A stretch of DNA of 34,899 bases, from assembly GCA_025062155.1 (NCBI GenBank), contig JANXAM010000026.1, positions 1 through 34,899 of the forward strand, read 5' to 3'. Shown here piece by piece: positions 13,102 to 23,571 of the stretch. Position 1 is the stretch's first letter. Each line of letters starts with the position of its first letter. A program made the translations under genes and the position numbers. The notes under the pieces were generated by a model. That model was not told where the DNA came from, searched no databases, and worked only from the letters and a program-made list of their open reading frames with translations. Source of the DNA: Gloeomargarita sp. SKYB120. GTDB lineage: Bacteria; Cyanobacteriota; Cyanobacteriia; Gloeomargaritales; Gloeomargaritaceae.

Positions 13102-13483
13102 TTAGGTGATGCTGTACAGTCTATCTTGCCTGCATGAGCGGCCGACTGCGCCTTGCCCCATCCTCCATCTGGCTACTCGCTGACCTGTCAACCGAGTCCA
13201 AAGACGTAAAAGCTCTTCAGGGCAATGGTTTCGACCTCCACTTTTGTCGGGTATAGCTAAGCACACAATGTTTGGCATGAGCTACAACTAGAGGCCTTGA
13301 CGCTTTTGCCTTGCCCGCTGCTCAAACACGCCAGCTCAAATGTTTTTTGCTATAAGTAAGCTGTCCAGATTTATGGCCACAGCTAAGCCGCTTTAGTTTG
13401 TCAGAGAGGGGAGAGAAAACTCAAGGGTGGGGCCGTGCTCTGGAACCCAGGGGCTGACAACCATAGATGGCTCAGCTATAAAA
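13102..13483. other. Gene-poor region after tRNA-Asn
   Basis: I see no supportable gene in these 382 bases: all frames are interrupted and no family is recognisable. Short AT-rich patches such as TATAGCTAAGC (13252-13262) and CAGCTATAAAATCACAG (near 13473) might be decayed ends of the neighbouring IS630-type element, but I could not pair them convincingly as terminal inverted repeats. Confidence 0.4.
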
Positions 13484-16360: not shown

Positions 16361-18217
16361 CTAATTGTTCCTTTTGAAAGCGTGGATGGGTTGCTGCGGT
16401 GAACAATAGTCACTTAATCTATTGGTATCCAGAAATTCTTGCACGCTGTTGAACGCATTGAAAAACAAGGGAGTTCCAGCAAAGGAAAGAGGAGAAACGG
16501 GGCCAATGGTCATGAAGGAATATTCTCTACTGGCAATGTCAAATGAGGAGTGGGGGTCTCGGAATAGCTGGTAGAGATCGAGAGCTTTGCTGCGCCCACC
16601 CACCAATTCACCTAAGGCTTTGAACTCAGACCCCATCCCCAGGCCAAAACCAAAGAAAAAGATACGTAGTTGTTCCAGGATTTCCCGATGGAGACTGGAA
16701 AGCGTTTGGCTAATAAAAAACCACCCCACGCCGTATTTGCGGGTCGTGCGAGCTGCGTCAATTAAAATGGCGCGTACAGCTTTTTCCTCATCACTGTCTG
16801 GTTCTTCTCTGGGCGCTAGACGATGAGCTTCATCCATCAGCACTAATGTATTAAGACTGCGGTTTTGTTGGTAGGCTTGTTCCGCAGCAGTGCGAATGCC
16901 TTCTAGTAACCTTTTGATGACGAGAGATTGAATGGTCTCGTTCCAGAACAAAGGGATACTTTGGGATTCGGATACATCGCCGCCAAACAGGGGAAGTGTA
17001 TCCCAGCCGTTTGTTGTATTGGTTCCCTGTTCCACAGATAGGTCAATTACTACCAGGGGCCGTTGTGCTTGCTCAGGCGTAAACAAATCCGACAACAACC
17101 GTTCTACTTTTTGCGCTCCTTGCCGGTCGTCACGAAAGAGTTGCGTCACAGGTAGCCAAACATTCTGGTAGAGTTCATTGGGATTGGTTGCAGCTATCTG
17201 TTGAGTGACTCGTTCCCTAGCTTCTTTAGAACCATAGAATTGCACTTGGATGCGTTCTTCTCGCAGCCAGCGCCAAACCTTATCGAAACTCTCCCTTTTG
17301 TGTAAATCAGCCAGCCGCCCGTGGTTTTTGCGTAGCTGTTCACTGATGACTTCTGCTGCTTGCCGCTGGTTTTCTGCCGCTTTTACACCCAGCCGCTGAA
17401 AGAACCCAGATTCCAGCAGAATTTGCTCAAACAAATACCACCGGTCTAAGACCAAATCCCTGACGCTATAGACCTGTACAGGCTTCCCCAGACGATTCAA
17501 AATACGCCGCATTGGCAACTGAAACGCACCCGATGCCGCTTCACCCCTGGCGTCCTTGGCAAATTCGCCTTGGGGGTCAATGACCAGCAGGGCCATTTGA
17601 GGGTAGCGGGCATAGGCCAGCAGTATCATCTTGGCCAGCACTGATTTCCCCGAGCCAGTTTTGCCAAAAATGCCCAGGTGATAGGCTTCACCCGCCCCCT
17701 GCGGTCCTGTATCAAAATGCTTAAACCACAAGGGCAACAAGGGTTTGGAACCGTAAACATGCCCTAGATAGAAAAGCTGGTCTCGGTAGGGCGAAAGTAA
17801 TTCGTCGAGCACCCGATCATTCACCAGGCAAATGGGCGTACCGGTTGCAGGAACCGTTCCCAAAATGCTGGGGCAATAACCATTCACTCCCGCAGAAAAG
17901 ACAGCGCTGATGACCATCTCGCCGGCATGGGTGTCTTGGCGCTCGCTGACTGTGTCAATGCGTCCCCGCTGGCGAACCAAGCTCCGCATCGTCGGGTCTT
18001 CATGCCAAACGTTACGCAGCGTCACTTCGGTGATTTGACCGAGGGCGTAATGGGGAAACCCATCCTGCTGGTAGCGAAAGAGCGCTAGTTCCCCGACCAG
18101 TTTTTTGTTCACGGCGCTGGCCAGAATCTCTAGTGATATAGCACTACTTGAGGAAGGCGACCCGATGACCCCAATGCGTTCTGCTTGGTCAACAAGTTGG
18201 TCTAATTCCAGTCCCAT
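16361..18217 (-). CDS. herA: HerA-type ATPase (DUF87)
   Basis: The protein is about 618 aa from the ATG at 18217. HerA ATPases are hexameric DNA translocases that work with NurA nucleases. An N-terminal HAS-barrel-like region (IGVIGSPSSSS) precedes Walker A GKTGSGKS (185-192), LLVIDPQGEFA, Walker B LVLMDEAHRLAP (D462, E463) and a sensor-like FISQTL. The family match is to bacterial HerA/FtsK-superfamily proteins. An in-frame ATG at 18271 would overlap nurA by 29 nt and add 18 residues; either start is possible. It is last in the seven-gene run and directly follows nurA. Sampled lines are more AT-rich than the housekeeping genes around. In bacteria HerA is often part of anti-phage systems. Confidence 0.88.
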   Translation of the reverse strand: MGLELDQLVDQAERIGVIGSPSSSSAISLEILASAVNKKLVGELALFRYQQDGFPHYALGQITEVTLRNVWHEDPTMRSLVRQRGRIDTVSERQDTHAGEMVISAVFSAGVNGYCPSILGTVPATGTPICLVNDRVLDELLSPYRDQLFYLGHVYGSKPLLPLWFKHFDTGPQGAGEAYHLGIFGKTGSGKSVLAKMILLAYARYPQMALLVIDPQGEFAKDARGEAASGAFQLPMRRILNRLGKPVQVYSVRDLVLDRWYLFEQILLESGFFQRLGVKAAENQRQAAEVISEQLRKNHGRLADLHKRESFDKVWRWLREERIQVQFYGSKEARERVTQQIAATNPNELYQNVWLPVTQLFRDDRQGAQKVERLLSDLFTPEQAQRPLVVIDLSVEQGTNTTNGWDTLPLFGGDVSESQSIPLFWNETIQSLVIKRLLEGIRTAAEQAYQQNRSLNTLVLMDEAHRLAPREEPDSDEEKAVRAILIDAARTTRKYGVGWFFISQTLSSLHREILEQLRIFFFGFGLGMGSEFKALGELVGGRSKALDLYQLFRDPHSSFDIASREYSFMTIGPVSPLSFAGTPLFFNAFNSVQEFLDTNRLSDYCSPQQPIHAFKRNN

Positions 18218-18242
18218 AAAAAGCTTGCCATTCTGCTTGTGA

Positions 18243-19394
18243 TCATACCCCTGATTCTGTGCGATAGCCATGCAGTCCAAAGAAGACGTCGTCGAGATTG
18301 CCCTGGTAGGTTTCTGCAATCTGCTGACTCGTGATTTGCCGAAACGTGGGGATGGTTTTGGATAAATGTTTCACCATCCGGTCAGCCATGTATAGCGGGT
18401 AGGGTTCCATCATGGCGGGTGTACCGCACTGGTGACGAATACCGTGCAGGGCAATGGCAAGACGGGCTTGATTCTCCGCCACCGCACGGCTCATTTCAAT
18501 GCGCAGCGCCGGCAACCAGGGATACGGACGGTAGTAGAGCACCTGAATTTCACCAAGTAAGGCAATAATCTTCTCGGCCAACGGTTCAACTTTCGCCCGC
18601 ATTTCCAACTCGAGGGGATGCAAATTCAAATGCCAGGGTTCACTCGGTGGTTGCAAGCGTCTGGGTCGGGTGTATTCGCCCGGTTCCAACAAAAAGCTCA
18701 AAAGGCCCCGGTCATCATGGGTAGCCGGCCACCCCATCGCTTGGCCAATTTCTCGCTTGGTTGTGTACTTGGGGATAGCTAACCAACAGCGGTCGGTGCG
18801 CGTTGCAGCCAACACGGTCCAGTAAGCAGCCAAGATGTCGGGCACTTGCTGGCGAAAATGAGCGGTTGTCTCTAGCGATGCCGCCGCTTCACATCTATTC
18901 AGCGCCTGGTTGCAGTAAATCAGCGGCGTGGTGAGCGAACCGTCTAGGAAAACAACTTCATGGGGCGCCTGGGCTGCCAATTCCAGTTCCATACCTATCA
19001 TGAGTGCCCGCAGGATGGTCGTGGTTTCCGTTTCGTGCGTTTCTGTCTCCACCCAGACGCGATGTCGCGGTTCTGGCCAATGGCGCGTTTCTGAAGGCGG
19101 AGTCAGCCCTTCCACTGCCACTGCGGCTGCCGCGACCAAATCGTTGGTCAACAGGCGTTCAATTGCATAGGCACCATCAATACCGCAGGTGGTGGGAATG
19201 GGCACATAGGGCAACTCGGCATCTCGGCCCAACCAACCCGCCTGCTGGAGCTGTGCTCGCCATGTTTGCCGCTGTGCTCGGACGCGCTCGAAGTCCTGGA
19301 GCAATTTCTGGCCTAGGTTCTCCGTCCGTTGGAGCACTTCTTCCACCAGGGCTGCCGGCAACTCACCAAAGGGACGTTCTGCAAAGGTCATCAT
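18243..19394 (-). CDS. nurA: NurA-domain nuclease
   Basis: The 383-aa protein has the NurA layout. A helical N terminus is followed by a first metal-binding Asp in GIDGAY (D73), the second acidic motif VVFLDGSL (D151), a conserved region with the WLAIPKYTTKREIG stretch, and a C-terminal PYPLYMADRMVK motif. NurA is a Mn-dependent 5'-3' exonuclease and endonuclease with an RNase H-like fold, driven by HerA. The N terminus overlaps the last 32 nt of druA, and the herA start lies 25 nt after its stop, so the three are translationally linked. The start is one of two tandem ATGs (19394 or 19391). The only HerA/NurA pair in the window is this one. Confidence 0.85.
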   Translation of the reverse strand: MMTFAERPFGELPAALVEEVLQRTENLGQKLLQDFERVRAQRQTWRAQLQQAGWLGRDAELPYVPIPTTCGIDGAYAIERLLTNDLVAAAAVAVEGLTPPSETRHWPEPRHRVWVETETHETETTTILRALMIGMELELAAQAPHEVVFLDGSLTTPLIYCNQALNRCEAAASLETTAHFRQQVPDILAAYWTVLAATRTDRCWLAIPKYTTKREIGQAMGWPATHDDRGLLSFLLEPGEYTRPRRLQPPSEPWHLNLHPLELEMRAKVEPLAEKIIALLGEIQVLYYRPYPWLPALRIEMSRAVAENQARLAIALHGIRHQCGTPAMMEPYPLYMADRMVKHLSKTIPTFRQITSQQIAETYQGNLDDVFFGLHGYRTESGV

Positions 19395-20514
19395 TTGGGG
19401 TTAGCAGCAAGCGTTGTGGGATTTCTTGTTTACGCCACTCTTGCCATCGCTGGACCCGTTCAACACGCGGCAACAACCAACGCACTCGCCACCAGGCCAC
19501 CAGGTCTGCCAACGGTAAATCCCGATAGACCGGCGCTGCGTCCTGACCAGCCATGTAGGCTTCCAAGTTATCCACTAAGCGGAACAAAAATACTTCTCGC
19601 TTAACGCCGTGTCGCAACCAGTCCGAAGGGAGTCCCAGCCGGTGCAAGGCGCGCACCATTGTTTGCCATTTTAGGCGGGGTCCTGTGCCGAAACCGCCGC
19701 GCGTGGAAATCCCTTGCTGTTCCAAAAATTGGCGAAACAGGGGATAAAGCTCCATGAGATGGAAGGTGCCGTAGCCTTCAGTGTAACCCAGCGATTCGGC
19801 AATGAGCAGGTCCTTGTAGCGCAGGCGATTGTAGAGACTGCTACGGCCAAAGGCGCTGGTGGTGGTCAGAGCCACGAGATGGGCAGGTAATAGCCGTTGT
19901 TCGATTTCGGTATAGTGACCGGCGTATTTGCGGGCATAGGTCTGGCGAATCTCATTGGATGCTGCGATCAGAGCAATCAATTTACCGGCCAGCAAGTCAG
20001 CGTAGGGTGGCACCGCCCCCAAGGTTTGAATATCCATCGTTTGGTTGACAAAGAGCGTCTTTTGCCCCGGGGGATAGCGAAACAACCGGTCCCGCGCCGG
20101 AAAACTCAAAGGTGGTGACTGCAACGCCAGCAATCCCATGAGTTTGCCGTTGGACTGGTCCATCACTAGAAAACGCAATCGCCGCCCATAGCCCTTGGAA
20201 AATGGAATGGACCACAACAGGCGAGCCAGGCGAAACAGGTTGTGTTGGGACTCCGTTCTAACTTCCCACAGCACTGGGTCAATCCGTTCCGGTACAACGT
20301 CACAGCCATCGGCGAAAAAGTCCAGGTACTTCGGCAAGTGTTGCCGTAACCACCCTTGGCGAGCGACAATTTCCAACTGCGCAGCCGGCTGATGGATATG
20401 CCGCAAACGCTCTTTGCTCACCCCTTGAAAACACAACTCGCCATCTACGGCAATGCCAAATCCCAGCGCCTTGAGTTTATCCAGAACTAATTCCCGCAGC
20501 GTGGCCGCGTCCAC
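19363..20514 (-). CDS. druA: DruA-family (DUF4338) protein
   Basis: The 383-aa protein closely follows the DUF4338/DruA pattern of the Druantia type I anti-phage system. Landmarks are WSIPFSKGYGRRLRFLVMD (101-119), KLMGLLAL followed by the PARD motif (124-142), GAVPPYADLLAGKLIALIA (166-184), ALTTTSAFGRSSLYNRL (215-231), a GFGTGPRLKW motif (274-283) and HGVKREVFLFRL (302-313). The molecular role of DruA is not established; a nucleic-acid-acting function is usually presumed. The GTG at 20514 is the first start after an in-frame TGA. The gene overlaps nurA. No DruB-E genes are found, so the neighbours differ from known Druantia types. Confidence 0.88.
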   Translation of the reverse strand: MDAATLRELVLDKLKALGFGIAVDGELCFQGVSKERLRHIHQPAAQLEIVARQGWLRQHLPKYLDFFADGCDVVPERIDPVLWEVRTESQHNLFRLARLLWSIPFSKGYGRRLRFLVMDQSNGKLMGLLALQSPPLSFPARDRLFRYPPGQKTLFVNQTMDIQTLGAVPPYADLLAGKLIALIAASNEIRQTYARKYAGHYTEIEQRLLPAHLVALTTTSAFGRSSLYNRLRYKDLLIAESLGYTEGYGTFHLMELYPLFRQFLEQQGISTRGGFGTGPRLKWQTMVRALHRLGLPSDWLRHGVKREVFLFRLVDNLEAYMAGQDAAPVYRDLPLADLVAWWRVRWLLPRVERVQRWQEWRKQEIPQRLLLTPNDDLCRTSLW

Positions 20515-20559
20515 TCCTCACCGCTTTGATTGCATTCCAAACCCACTATACTCCAAACG

Positions 20560-20835
20560 TCACACATCAGATTCAGCATCAGTATCAAACTCCTGTAACG
20601 CTGCGTGGGCAACCGCCGGATGACAATACTGGCACCCCAAACAGTCGTACTGCAACGGTTGCATTTTTTGAGATGCAGTCGCCAGGAGTGCTTGCAGGTC
20701 AGAAGCGTCGTTGGGATTGAGCTTAGGCAACATCTCTGTTAGGAACTTGAGCACATAAGCCATGCAGCCACATTTCTGGCATTTCGGTAGGGCCATAGCG
20801 GTTTCAATTTCATAGCGAACTTTGTCTAAAGACAT
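20560..20835 (-). CDS. Six-Cys small protein, putative metal/Fe-S binding
   Basis: The 91-aa protein has two Cys clusters: C19-X2-C22-X-C24 (PKCQKCGCM) and C65-X2-C68-X2-C71-H72 (DCLGCQYCHPAVAHAAL). A helix separates them. The spacing suggests one zinc or iron-sulfur site formed by both clusters. It faintly recalls N-terminal segments of larger cyanobacterial proteins containing CLGC-x-CYPA, but I cannot name the family. Its C-terminal tail is acidic. It lies 45 nt upstream of druA and 68 nt downstream of the CARF gene on the same strand, so it may be an adaptor or regulator of the cluster. Confidence 0.7.
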   Translation of the reverse strand: MSLDKVRYEIETAMALPKCQKCGCMAYVLKFLTEMLPKLNPNDASDLQALLATASQKMQPLQYDCLGCQYCHPAVAHAALQEFDTDAESDV

Positions 20836-20903
20836 AGCTGCTGCAAGTTTGTCAGCGAGATCATTGGAAAACCAAGAACGGAGCTTTGACCAGCATCAGT
20901 GAC

Positions 20904-22058
20904 CTAGCCATGCGAGCGATAACGCCGGTTCAATTGGTCAGCAGCCCACACTAGCGATTGCGGCGATTCATCGGTCAAAAGCAATCGAAAACGACCCCCA
21001 AAGTTGCGGTCTTGATACGTACCTATCAATTGCTTTTCCGTACCATTATCCCACACATAGAAACCAGTCCCTTTGATGGCTGATTGTTTGTCGTAGGGAA
21101 GTGAAAATGCAGTTTTTACCCAGGGTGTCTCTCGCCATACCTTTTCGACAAATTCTGCAAATCCTTTGGGATAGTTATCATCACCAAAACGGGGTTGCTT
21201 CTTCTGTTCACCCGTCGCTGGTACAAGCTGAATGGGTTTGGGATGCCGTATCCGAAACCCGTCCAAATAAATTTGCCCAACCGGACTCAATTCATAAACC
21301 GGTGTACCGTCCATTTCCACTTCAATCAACAGCACCTTTAATTTCTCATCCACTCGGCCAATTTCATCTTCAGACAGGGCTTCCCCTTTCTCAAAGTCAG
21401 TAAGCAACCACGAATTTCGACCAAGCAAATCGTAGTCGAAGGCAACTGGTAACGGCGGGAAATCAATAATTTCTGAGAAGCGTTCATGCTTGTAAAAGAC
21501 GGGTATATCTAGTACTTGACCCATAATAACAGCTACAGCAATCTGAGCTTTGTAACCACCGGTGGCATCAATAGCGACATACTCAGGCCCGCCAAAGCGC
21601 TGGATGATCTCCCCACACTTGCGCACCAGATTCCGTAACCCATGGATTTTGAAATCCGTGGGACGTTGGTCCTGCAACTGCTCGACAACAATGTATTCAA
21701 TATTACGCAGCTTTAAGTCTGAACGGTTCTCAAAATAAATTTGTAAAAACTGACCGGTATTTTGACCGATGGGCGTATCGGAAACCAGAAAAATTAGATT
21801 CTCCAGAGACAACCACTTTTTACGACGGGCTTCTTCAATGGTGTTGATTTCCGCGCCACACAGTCGCTCAGTAGGAGGTATGCGCAGGAGTTCTTTGGCT
21901 AATTCACGCCAGTTTTGGGCATCGTAGGCTCGCCGGATGGCTTCCCAATTGGCTGGCGCGTTGGGTGTAACAGCCGACAACCGGCTCAAGTTGCCTTCGA
22001 ACAGACTGGTGCCAACGGTGCAAATGAGAGTGTTGCGCTTTGACATGGTGTCGCTCAC
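20904..22058 (-). CDS. Orphan CARF protein (APE2256-like)
   Basis: The 384-aa protein has an N-terminal CARF Rossmann fold of the Cas_APE2256 type. It opens LICTVGTSLFEGNL (11-24) and carries the ligand-pocket motif VAIDATGGYKAQIAVA (161-176), then IPVFYKHERFSEIIDFPPLP. A winged-helix-like segment follows (about 225-270). The last 100 residues (285-384) are a separate domain of unknown type. A RelE-like toxin fold is conceivable from its small mixed alpha/beta look, but not shown. CARF domains bind cyclic oligoadenylates made by type III CRISPR Cas10; no cas gene is in the window. The GTG at 22058 overlaps the preceding stop (GTGA), so translation is coupled to the protease-like gene. Sampled lines are AT-rich. 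Confidence 0.82.
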   Translation of the reverse strand: MSDTMSKRNTLICTVGTSLFEGNLSRLSAVTPNAPANWEAIRRAYDAQNWRELAKELLRIPPTERLCGAEINTIEEARRKKWLSLENLIFLVSDTPIGQNTGQFLQIYFENRSDLKLRNIEYIVVEQLQDQRPTDFKIHGLRNLVRKCGEIIQRFGGPEYVAIDATGGYKAQIAVAVIMGQVLDIPVFYKHERFSEIIDFPPLPVAFDYDLLGRNSWLLTDFEKGEALSEDEIGRVDEKLKVLLIEVEMDGTPVYELSPVGQIYLDGFRIRHPKPIQLVPATGEQKKQPRFGDDNYPKGFAEFVEKVWRETPWVKTAFSLPYDKQSAIKGTGFYVWDNGTEKQLIGTYQDRNFGGRFRLLLTDESPQSLVWAADQLNRRYRSHG

Positions 22059-22561
22059 AGTCCACGGGGATGGTCAAGGGGGACAACCCGAAAAATGCGT
22101 TTCGTGTGATGGTCATTGCAGCGATGAGAAAAAGCATCGGTTGCCTGTCCGGTTTGGGGGTCTAGAATCTGGTCGCGATGCAACACCACGATATGGGAAC
22201 CCGTGACCCAGCCCCGCTCATCGGGGTCGCCAAGAATTGCCGCCGGGTCATTGCGAGTGTAATAGCTTAGGGTAAACAGGTCATCCAGCGCCACTAGCTC
22301 CGCCATGTAGTACTTCAACTTGCGGACATCAGTGGGACAGTAAGCCAGCTTCATGTTGGCCACCTGTAGCGCTTCCGACCAGGAGACCGGGTCTTGGGTG
22401 TTAATCCGGCCTTGGAATTCTTCAGGTGTGCGACCGGTCAAGATGGCCAACACGGTTGAAACACAATGGGGACCCTGTTGCTGGATGGGCTGGAACACCC
22501 GTTTGCGGAAAAACGCTTCGTCTTGGCGGGGCCACAGCGAGCAGGTTGCGTCGTAGGGCAT
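22055..22561 (-). CDS. Papain-like (C39-type) putative cysteine protease
   Basis: The protein is 168 aa and resembles single-domain papain-fold/C39-like peptidases. A QQQGPHCVSTVLAILTG stretch fits the catalytic Cys region (C33, with Q28 or Q29 as oxyanion Gln). GSHIVVLHRDQILDPQTG fits the catalytic His (H123) and Asp (D134) pattern seen in this fold (H, then strand, then DP). It has no signal peptide. Substrates cannot be guessed. Alternatives are transglutaminase-like or an inactive relative. It is coupled to the CARF gene by a 4-nt GTGA overlap and lies 8 nt after the 137-aa gene. A protease next to a CARF sensor is suggestive. Confidence 0.5.
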   Translation of the reverse strand: MPYDATCSLWPRQDEAFFRKRVFQPIQQQGPHCVSTVLAILTGRTPEEFQGRINTQDPVSWSEALQVANMKLAYCPTDVRKLKYYMAELVALDDLFTLSYYTRNDPAAILGDPDERGWVTGSHIVVLHRDQILDPQTGQATDAFSHRCNDHHTKRIFRVVPLDHPRGL

Positions 22562-22569
22562 GGCTGTTT

Positions 22570-22983
22570 TTATCCCCCCTGCAAGCGCTCCTGAATCTCC
22601 ATTAATTGTTCGCGCTCATCCACCACTCCATGGGGCAAGGGCAATTCTAGGTTCGGCCATAGGGGTAAATCGGCACACGGACAGGGGCCGGTCTGCATTC
22701 CCACTACCTTGACGGGCACGGGCATTCCACAACGACTACACGGAATAAACTCCCATTCGGGGGAACACAACTGCGCCAGCGTGACCTCAGTACCGCTCAG
22801 GGAGTAACGCTCTAGACCGTCCTGCTCCATCTGTCGCCACAGCGCCAAAAATTCAGGGCTATAGTCTCCTGCTTGGGCGACATGCACTGGCCGCCAATGG
22901 CGTTGGCCATCCGTGACCGTCTTGCCCGCCTGGAACCAACAGGCAAGATAGTGAAAAACGGCTTCCCTAGCGGCCATAGGCAT
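22570..22983 (-). CDS. Conserved hypothetical with CxxC/CPC motif
   Basis: The 137-aa soluble protein has a central IPCSRCGMPVPVKVV motif and a later GPCPCADLP (C82, C85, C101, C103), probably binding one zinc. The N-terminal half is helical. I recall similar cyanobacterial hypothetical proteins but no function. It is first in the seven-gene minus-strand run. ATGs at 22983 and 22977 are both possible. A TATAGA box lies at 22994-22999, only about 10 nt upstream, which would give a nearly leaderless transcript and is a weak promoter candidate. Confidence 0.6.
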   Translation of the reverse strand: MPMAAREAVFHYLACWFQAGKTVTDGQRHWRPVHVAQAGDYSPEFLALWRQMEQDGLERYSLSGTEVTLAQLCSPEWEFIPCSRCGMPVPVKVVGMQTGPCPCADLPLWPNLELPLPHGVVDEREQLMEIQERLQGG

Positions 22984-23061
22984 TCTCAGAACATCTATAC
23001 TTTACGCTAGCAAATTGTCGCCTGGGGGGCCGGTAAGCGTAAGAAAGGTTTAAGCAACGGT

Positions 23062-23571
23062 TTATTCAGAAAAAAAGAAATACTTCACCAGCGCGCCAAG
23101 CATGCCCACCACAATCGCCCCGAACGCACTACGGCTGAGCAGTTCTTCATTGGCAACCCGCTTGTCGAGACCATTGAATCGCTCATCAAGGCGCTTGATT
23201 TCTCCCTTGAGTTCCGTAAAGTGAACATCTATTTTCTTGTCTAATTCCCCAAAACGGACATCAATCTTTCTGTCTAATTCAGCAGCGCGATTCTCAGCTT
23301 TCTTGTCTAGCTCAGCAAAGCGAGTGTCCACTTCCGCAAATCGAACATCAATCTTTTTTTCCAGCTCGGCAAAGCGGGTGTCCACTTCTGCAAAGCGGAC
23401 ATCAATCTTTTTTTCCAGCTCGGCAAAGCGGGTGTCTATCTTTTTGTCCAGTTCAGCAAAGCGGCTGTCCACCTCGGCAAGGCGGACATCAATCTTCCGG
23501 TCTAGGGCGTCAATCTTGCGGTCCAGGGCAAGTAGAATCTCTCGCAAGTCCTGATTGCTGGATTCACTCAT
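23062..23571 (-). CDS. Repeat coiled-coil protein with C-terminal membrane anchor
   Basis: The 169-aa protein is a long helix built from repeated KIDVRFAEVDTRFAELEK-like units (18 residues, variants of F-A-E-[LV]-[DE]-x-[KR]), extending from about residue 10 to 135. It ends with a hydrophobic segment (SAFGAIVVGMLGALVKYFF) near 148-166. This resembles DUF1640/CCDC90- or Bdr-type coiled-coil proteins that project from a membrane. It has no signal peptide, so the anchor is probably a C-terminal tail. The function is unknown. It lies 78 nt upstream of the island's first gene on the same strand, so it could read into it. Confidence 0.65.
   Translation of the reverse strand: MSESSNQDLREILLALDRKIDALDRKIDVRLAEVDSRFAELDKKIDTRFAELEKKIDVRFAEVDTRFAELEKKIDVRFAEVDTRFAELDKKAENRAAELDRKIDVRFGELDKKIDVHFTELKGEIKRLDERFNGLDKRVANEELLSRSAFGAIVVGMLGALVKYFFFSE
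23324..23431 (-). repeat. Two tandem 54-nt repeats inside the coiled-coil gene
   Basis: Two adjacent 54-nt units (23324-23377 and 23378-23431) are nearly identical, each encoding an 18-residue block. A third, partial unit follows from 23432, and diverged blocks precede. Such a tract can change copy number by slippage in multiples of 54 nt without breaking the frame. Confidence 0.8.

Follow-up and report, generated by a model that had tools for sequence, protein, structure and literature searches.

In Gloeomargarita sp. SKYB120, three adjacent genes encode a DruA protein of the DUF4338 family, a divergent nuclease of the NurA family and a HerA-type translocase ATPase, and comparison across genomes identifies the three genes as a conserved unit. 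They lie on the minus strand of a stretch of 34,899 nucleotides (nt), which is one entire contig (contig C26 of genome G000) and is referred to here as the window. We conclude that the trio probably represents a previously undescribed system for destroying foreign DNA. On balance, we lean towards a self-contained, horizontally moving module that would attack foreign DNA and in which DruA would be the self/non-self part, either as a marker or as a descendant of a marker that senses or guides.

A conserved unit of DruA, NurA and HerA

The druA gene (19363..20514, GTG start) encodes a protein of 383 residues. It matched PF14236 (DUF4338) with an E-value of 1.5e-76 and the PADLOC model DruA1 with an E-value of 1.2e-97, and its AlphaFold (AF2) model has a GNAT-like fold. 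The nurA gene (18243..19394), which also encodes 383 residues, overlaps druA by 32 nt, and herA (16361..18217) follows, with an ATG at 18217 that lies 25 nt after the nurA stop codon. An alternative start of herA, the upstream TTG at 18319, would create an overlap of 77 nt with nurA; the ATG is the likely start and gives a protein of 618 residues. With this start, the overlap and the gap that a first-pass annotation of the sequence had given both hold. The trio spans about 4.2 kb.

The DruA and HerA identities proposed by the first-pass annotation were borne out by Pfam. HerA matched PF01935 with an E-value of 4.3e-15, carries the Walker A motif GKTGSGKS and the Walker B motif LVLMDEAH, and has TdpA (8wet) as its best sequence match in the PDB. 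The proposed NurA was missed by Pfam, with a score of 13.3 bits against a cut-off of 21 bits (E = 0.059), and Pfam alone would therefore reject it as a misannotation. This was overturned by the predicted structure. The AlphaFold model (predicted local distance difference test, pLDDT, 86.7; predicted template modelling score, pTM, 0.84) matched the NurA proteins of Thermococcus (9x1m_G) and Sulfolobus (2ygk_A) with a Z-score of 21.9 (Foldseek E = 2e-11), compared with 13.7 for TdpB (8wfd_G) and about 9 and below for other RNase H-like proteins. Residues D73, E136 and D151, which we take to be the catalytic triad, were invariant among 14 homologues. Judged by its model, the protein is a member of the NurA family.

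We refer to this divergent type as N1. A second NurA family, N2, lies above the Pfam NurA cut-off (27.4 versus 21 bits), matches TdpB at the profile level (E = 7e-5) and has the matching D/E/D residues invariant in all 16 of 16 members. HerA proteins linked to N1 keep the Walker motifs. Those linked to N2 passed the Pfam threshold for DUF87 and gave no match to a strict Walker A pattern, with a GQSGFGKT-like sequence visible by eye. From these motifs, the nuclease and the motor of the trio look active, and the translocase and nuclease parts expected from the initial description of NurA-HerA as a motor and nuclease are present.

The linkage between the genes was assessed in two surveys. DruA, N1 and N2 served as queries against 386 cyanobacterial genomes, a set that, unlike the species-wide scan, was not biased toward trio-type DruA. 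DruA was found in seven of these genomes, and in six of the seven an N1 or N2 NurA was encoded within about 3 kb. Among the 379 genomes that do not encode DruA, N1 or N2 was found in two, once as a partial match and once as a truncated frame (Fisher's exact test for DruA-NurA linkage, p = 4e-11).

In the species-wide scan, the DruA alignment was run against 84,980 prokaryotic species, each represented by one genome. It returned 34 DruA loci, 26 of them with all three genes, a fraction that overstates the linkage for DruA at large because the scan was seeded with trio-type DruA. The plasmid DruA genes that we inspected sit in non-trio contexts, which likewise tempers the case for the trio as the usual setting of DruA. 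The 26 trio loci, many of them in metagenome bins, come from at least nine phyla, including Cyanobacteriota, Bacillota, Chloroflexota, Armatimonadota, Deinococcota, Bacteroidota, Calditrichota, Acidobacteriota and a Heimdall archaeon. The search for DUF4338 next to NurA and DUF87, which the first-pass annotation had proposed, thus revealed a conserved trio in two gene orders, DruA-NurA-HerA or NurA-HerA-DruA, with intergenic distances mostly between -62 and +47 nt.

Four of the 34 loci (L035, L037, L045 and L047) have reduced, fused or third-type versions of the trio. L043 has DruA and a piece of HerA at a contig edge, L018 and L041 are cut by contig ends, and the one remaining locus, L019, has DruE instead. 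At the Trichodesmium locus (L037:2953-4038), a third, further-diverged NurA-like gene, encoding 361 residues and recognized by eye, stands before HerA and DruA. Decayed systems were found in cyanobacteria and an acidobacterium (L035:5167-6801, L045:3012-4259, L031 and L047). In these systems, apparent in-frame deletions join either HerA or NurA to DruA, some frames are shortened, and one locus lacks HerA.

Chance arrangement within a single lineage, or an artefact of a metagenome-assembled genome, is ruled out by the presence of the trio in a sister genome and by its spread across phyla. The three genes are a conserved unit. We found no paper on DruA, NurA and HerA together, or on Druantia with NurA, in a literature search that left most subscription papers outside its reach.

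The fold of DruA and its changing partners

No solved homologue of DruA was found by sequence. Its AlphaFold model (pLDDT 89.4, pTM 0.87) matched GNAT acyltransferases. After realignment, the top match was Mom of phage Mu (8bv8), with a Z-score of 9.8 over 177 residues, and Foldseek returned only acetyltransferase-type matches near the top, with E-values of 0.008 or worse. DUF4338 has been described as a GNAT domain (PMC10853773).

A connection between DruA and Mom was provided by small DUF4338 proteins (L117, L118, L054, L119, L122 and L124), some of which are encoded beside or fused to transposase genes. In hhalign comparisons, these proteins matched DruA with a probability of 98.7 (E = 3e-16) and Mom (PF25680) with a probability of 96.1 (E = 3e-9), compared with 0.8 and 2.1 for a single control protein, a genuine GNAT from the same genome (L127). 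According to these profiles, the small DUF4338 proteins bridge DruA and Mom and are homologous to both. A shared motif, G-x-x-Y-x-A-x-N-[FW]-x-x-x-G, was recognized by eye, and its DruA version reads FGKSSIYNRL-NW-F-GYT-G.

The Mom family is responsible for DNA-adenine modification in phage Mu. The GNAT-like fold that DruA appears to share with it, and the homology to small DUF4338 proteins, lend structural and profile support to modification, one of the two roles, recognition or modification, that the first-pass annotation had suggested for DruA. Several observations weigh against a close equation of the two proteins. Ordinary GNATs lie within one Z unit of Mom, which turns the structural lead of Mom into a tie. 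When the DruA profile was compared directly with that of 13 Mom proteins, the match was not significant (probability 0.4), and the gene partners of the two families are different. Furthermore, the invariant HY pair of Mom, which is kept in some of the small DUF4338 proteins, is replaced by W-S-x-P in DruA, where W101, P104, G108, G110, R111 and R112 are invariant. K178 of DruA is invariant as well, and Y228 nearly so. Because the HY pair is not present in DruA, it cannot be assumed that its chemistry is the same as that of Mom.

The partners of DruA vary. On the DruA tree, the N1 and N2 labels each need a minimum of five changes, and the DruA proteins linked to DruE occupy two separate positions. 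In a Dehalococcoidia genome (L019), a DruA with 47% identity that groups with the window's own clade is followed by DruE1 (E = 4e-285), with a type IIG restriction-methyltransferase and a helicase upstream of the DruA-DruE1 pair; this locus is a minimal Druantia system in which DruB-D were not recognized. At L048, a DruA of the same subfamily lies upstream of DruD1 and next to a recombinase-like gene, identified by eye. In line with Druantia, the plasmid DruA genes of Pseudomonas putida, Nitrosococcus and Meiothermus are accompanied by a very large helicase of the DEAD/DEAH type. On haloarchaeal plasmids (L070 and L071), a long DruA of 705-877 residues is surrounded by hypothetical genes, with an FtsK-type translocase nearby, possibly another combination of DruA and a motor. 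Since the partners differ, comprising HerA-NurA, DruE and FtsK-type proteins, DruA seems to function as a component alongside several different motors, of which NurA-HerA is one. We also observed, on a Roseivivax plasmid (L067:1707-5948), a DruA of 662 residues encoded after two ATP-binding proteins with a GHKL-type look by sequence.

The pairing of DruA with unrelated motors (HerA in the trio, DruE at L019 and in plasmid Druantia, FtsK-type on the haloarchaeal plasmids) is also what would be expected if DruA were a sensor or adaptor and not a modifier. Such a protein would bind a DNA structure or a protein of the invader and recruit or activate HerA-NurA, and in Druantia I it may recruit the DruE helicase likewise. 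We treat this as a tentative alternative, possible and less probable than the broader proposal made at the outset. It would account for the replacement of the HY pair by a different set of invariant residues. The relationship of the small DUF4338 proteins to Mom argues against it, and DruA genes in phage-like contigs suit a protective modifier better.

Two phage-like contigs from IMG/VR carry DruA, and no NurA or HerA was found beside it in the sequence available. In the first (L050:695-1789), DruA is located upstream of the terminase large subunit (PHROG E = 6e-33), with only 694 bases upstream of DruA. In the second (L051:5944-7008), DruA lies near a recombination exonuclease (E = 8e-31) and at the contig end, so that the upstream side alone was checked; this protein is 88% identical to the DruA of a Cytophagales trio. 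Two more IMG/VR scans yielded the same two contigs only, and sequenced phage records gave no tblastn match to DruA. DruA-like proteins have been reported, by structure, from six Synechococcus phages (PMC12774648). By analogy with phage methyltransferases, DruA in the two contigs would fit a protective DNA mark.

A predicted role against foreign DNA

In the mechanism that we propose from the protein families, the HerA ring would pump double-stranded DNA into NurA, which would cut it. The HerA-NurA proteins of Thermococcus assemble in a 6:2 ratio into a complex in which double-stranded DNA passes through the ring to the nuclease and is cleaved, and a role in viral defence was proposed for this complex by the authors (PMC12977600). 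DruA would act as the self/non-self component and would chemically mark host DNA, so that HerA-NurA is kept off. Alternatively, it may be a descendant of a marking enzyme that now senses or guides. Formation of a complex, degradation of foreign DNA and the chemistry of DruA are the elements that we infer here. To judge from the predicted structures, self-marking, or descent from a self-marking enzyme, is the most likely role of DruA, with sensing as the main rival. We favour a marker because the fold is related to that of the phage Mu modification enzyme Mom, and because Tdp has a similar layout, in which a motor and a nuclease are combined with a third part. A narrower version, according to which DruA is a Mom-type enzyme that adds a non-methyl group to host bases while NurA-HerA degrades unmarked DNA in the manner of restriction-modification, appears doubtful to us. 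No description of DruA function was found in the literature searched.

The DruE helicase is the component common to Druantia types I-III. The window DruA belongs to the same Pfam and PADLOC family as that of Druantia type I (DruA-DruB-DruC-DruD-DruE). The trio locus differs from Druantia type I in that it has NurA and HerA instead of DruB-E and is much more compact. The first-pass annotation had stated that none of DruB-E is present, which is correct for the window, where no PADLOC match to DruB, DruC, DruD or DruE was found among the eight genes at 16361-23571, but not for the genome as a whole, in which a DruE-family helicase is encoded on contig C4. This protein of 2081 residues (G000:C4, about 67630-73875; L165:4631-10876; E = 1.4e-249) is part of an operon separate from the trio and adjoins proteins of 320 and 1275 residues, neither of which matches any PADLOC model at 1e-10. 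The locus is possibly an unlinked Druantia-like system.

Archaeal and Deinococcus HerA-NurA share with the trio the NurA fold with its acidic residues and the HerA/DUF87 motor, whereas the N1 protein of the trio falls below the Pfam threshold, is linked to DruA and has a patchy, accessory distribution. Tdp also combines a HerA-like motor (TdpA, PDB 8wet) with a NurA-like nuclease (TdpB, PDB 8wfd). The third part of Tdp is TdpC, a DNA modifier that carries out phosphorothioation, whereas in the trio the third position is taken by DruA rather than by a phosphorothioation enzyme. HerA/FtsK motors are joined to varied defence effectors in HerA-SIR2, HerA-DUF4297 and DndFGH, for which the term "HerA/FtsK capture" has been used (PMC10853773; PMC11291478); these systems differ from the trio in having other effectors and no DruA-NurA pair. 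A DUF4338 GNAT domain is fused to some DndF proteins, in a report that does not mention NurA (PMC10853773).

Two observations count against a role in defence. The enrichment in defence islands that the first-pass annotation had suggested as a check was not seen: among the 120 genes that flank the trio at 24 loci, evaluated without a background set, the neighbours were diverse and not clearly defence genes, and defence families were few (mads, AbiEii and Uma2, with 2-3 members each). In addition, NurA-HerA can also serve DNA repair, and the pair owes its name to DNA end resection (PMC12977600). The trio could accordingly be a DNA-repair or end-processing operon, with an accessory NurA-HerA and with DruA as a regulator, and have no part in defence. 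We consider this unlikely. The idea of an accessory repair system is weakened because a separate NurA is already encoded in the same genome, on contig C47. Very patchy occurrence (two of seven Gloeomargarita genomes, six of 386 cyanobacterial genomes) also speaks against it, and broad spread, low GC content, decay and partner exchange suit conflict systems better. Our case for a defence role is built on the architecture, the patchy occurrence, the decayed copies and the kinship with Druantia, and not on island enrichment.

It is very unlikely, in our view, that the trio belongs to a mobile element, as a part of it or as its cargo, and aids the movement of that element rather than the defence of the host. 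The short DUF4338 proteins beside or fused to transposase genes would be in line with such a function, as would the serine recombinase next to the trio in L015 and the recombinase-like gene next to DruA in L048. Against it, no consistent integrase accompanies the trio, the neighbours vary from locus to locus, and the nuclease and motor look active by their motifs.

The locus in Gloeomargarita and its wider meaning

The trio is present in two of seven Gloeomargarita genomes, that of the window and a sister genome (G006), in which the three proteins are 97.5-99.5% identical to the window copy. The other five, one of which is only 83% complete, yielded no copy of it. Gloeomargarita sp. SKYG116 (L014) is a close relative of the window genome. 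In the sister genome G002, the sequence to the right of about 22.53 kb is kept in order, and the stretch 16361-22530, which has a lower GC content than its flanks, finds no match at that place. G000 and G006 have different left junctions of the trio stretch. Near the left junction in G006 lies one copy of a dispersed repeat, about 90 bp long, that has many matches in G000, at 13381-13468 of the window and at about 45 other places, several of them contig ends. Rearrangement and an assembly join cannot be told apart as the source of the difference on the left side. The trio itself is intact in both assemblies and is not affected by the doubt about the left junction. Separately, the thrS region occurs twice in G000 (C26:14000-15900 and C42:421-2325), with 79% identity between the copies, which suggests a duplicate or a mixed bin and bears on the left half of the window.

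Three further genes on the minus strand lie upstream of the trio and accompany it in the Gloeomargarita copies only. The first (20560..20835), 45 nt upstream of druA, encodes a cysteine-rich protein of 91 residues. As this protein is confined to the two Gloeomargarita copies, it is not a core part of the module. The second (20904..22058) lies 68 nt before the first and is possibly co-transcribed with the trio; it encodes a CARF protein of the Cas_APE2256 family (PF09651, E = 1.3e-31; PADLOC CARF7, E = 5e-99). The third (22055..22561), which encodes 168 residues and overlaps the CARF gene by 4 nt, sits close to where the stretch absent from G002 ends on the right.

All six genes share a strand and are separated by no more than 68 nt, an arrangement common to G000 and G006, which would be consistent with a six-gene unit in which the CARF protein senses a cyclic nucleotide made upon infection and switches the trio. 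We regard this as quite unlikely. No CARF gene was found at trio loci outside the two Gloeomargarita genomes, indicating that CARF is not required. Farther along the window (23062-23571), a coiled-coil repeat protein shows 74% identity between two near-identical loci, compared with about 97-99% around it.

If the proposed role is correct, a compact three-gene system would be added to the prokaryotic immune repertoire, and the trio would provide a mechanistic entry to Druantia I. The occurrence of DruA with two alternative engines, the DruE helicase or HerA-NurA, separates the role of DruA from the roles of its partners, and the link to Mom points to the specific question of a new base modification. 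If DruA does mark DNA in the manner of Mom, Druantia I would be a sister design with DruE in place of NurA-HerA, and phages that carry DruA without NurA or HerA would use the mark for escape.

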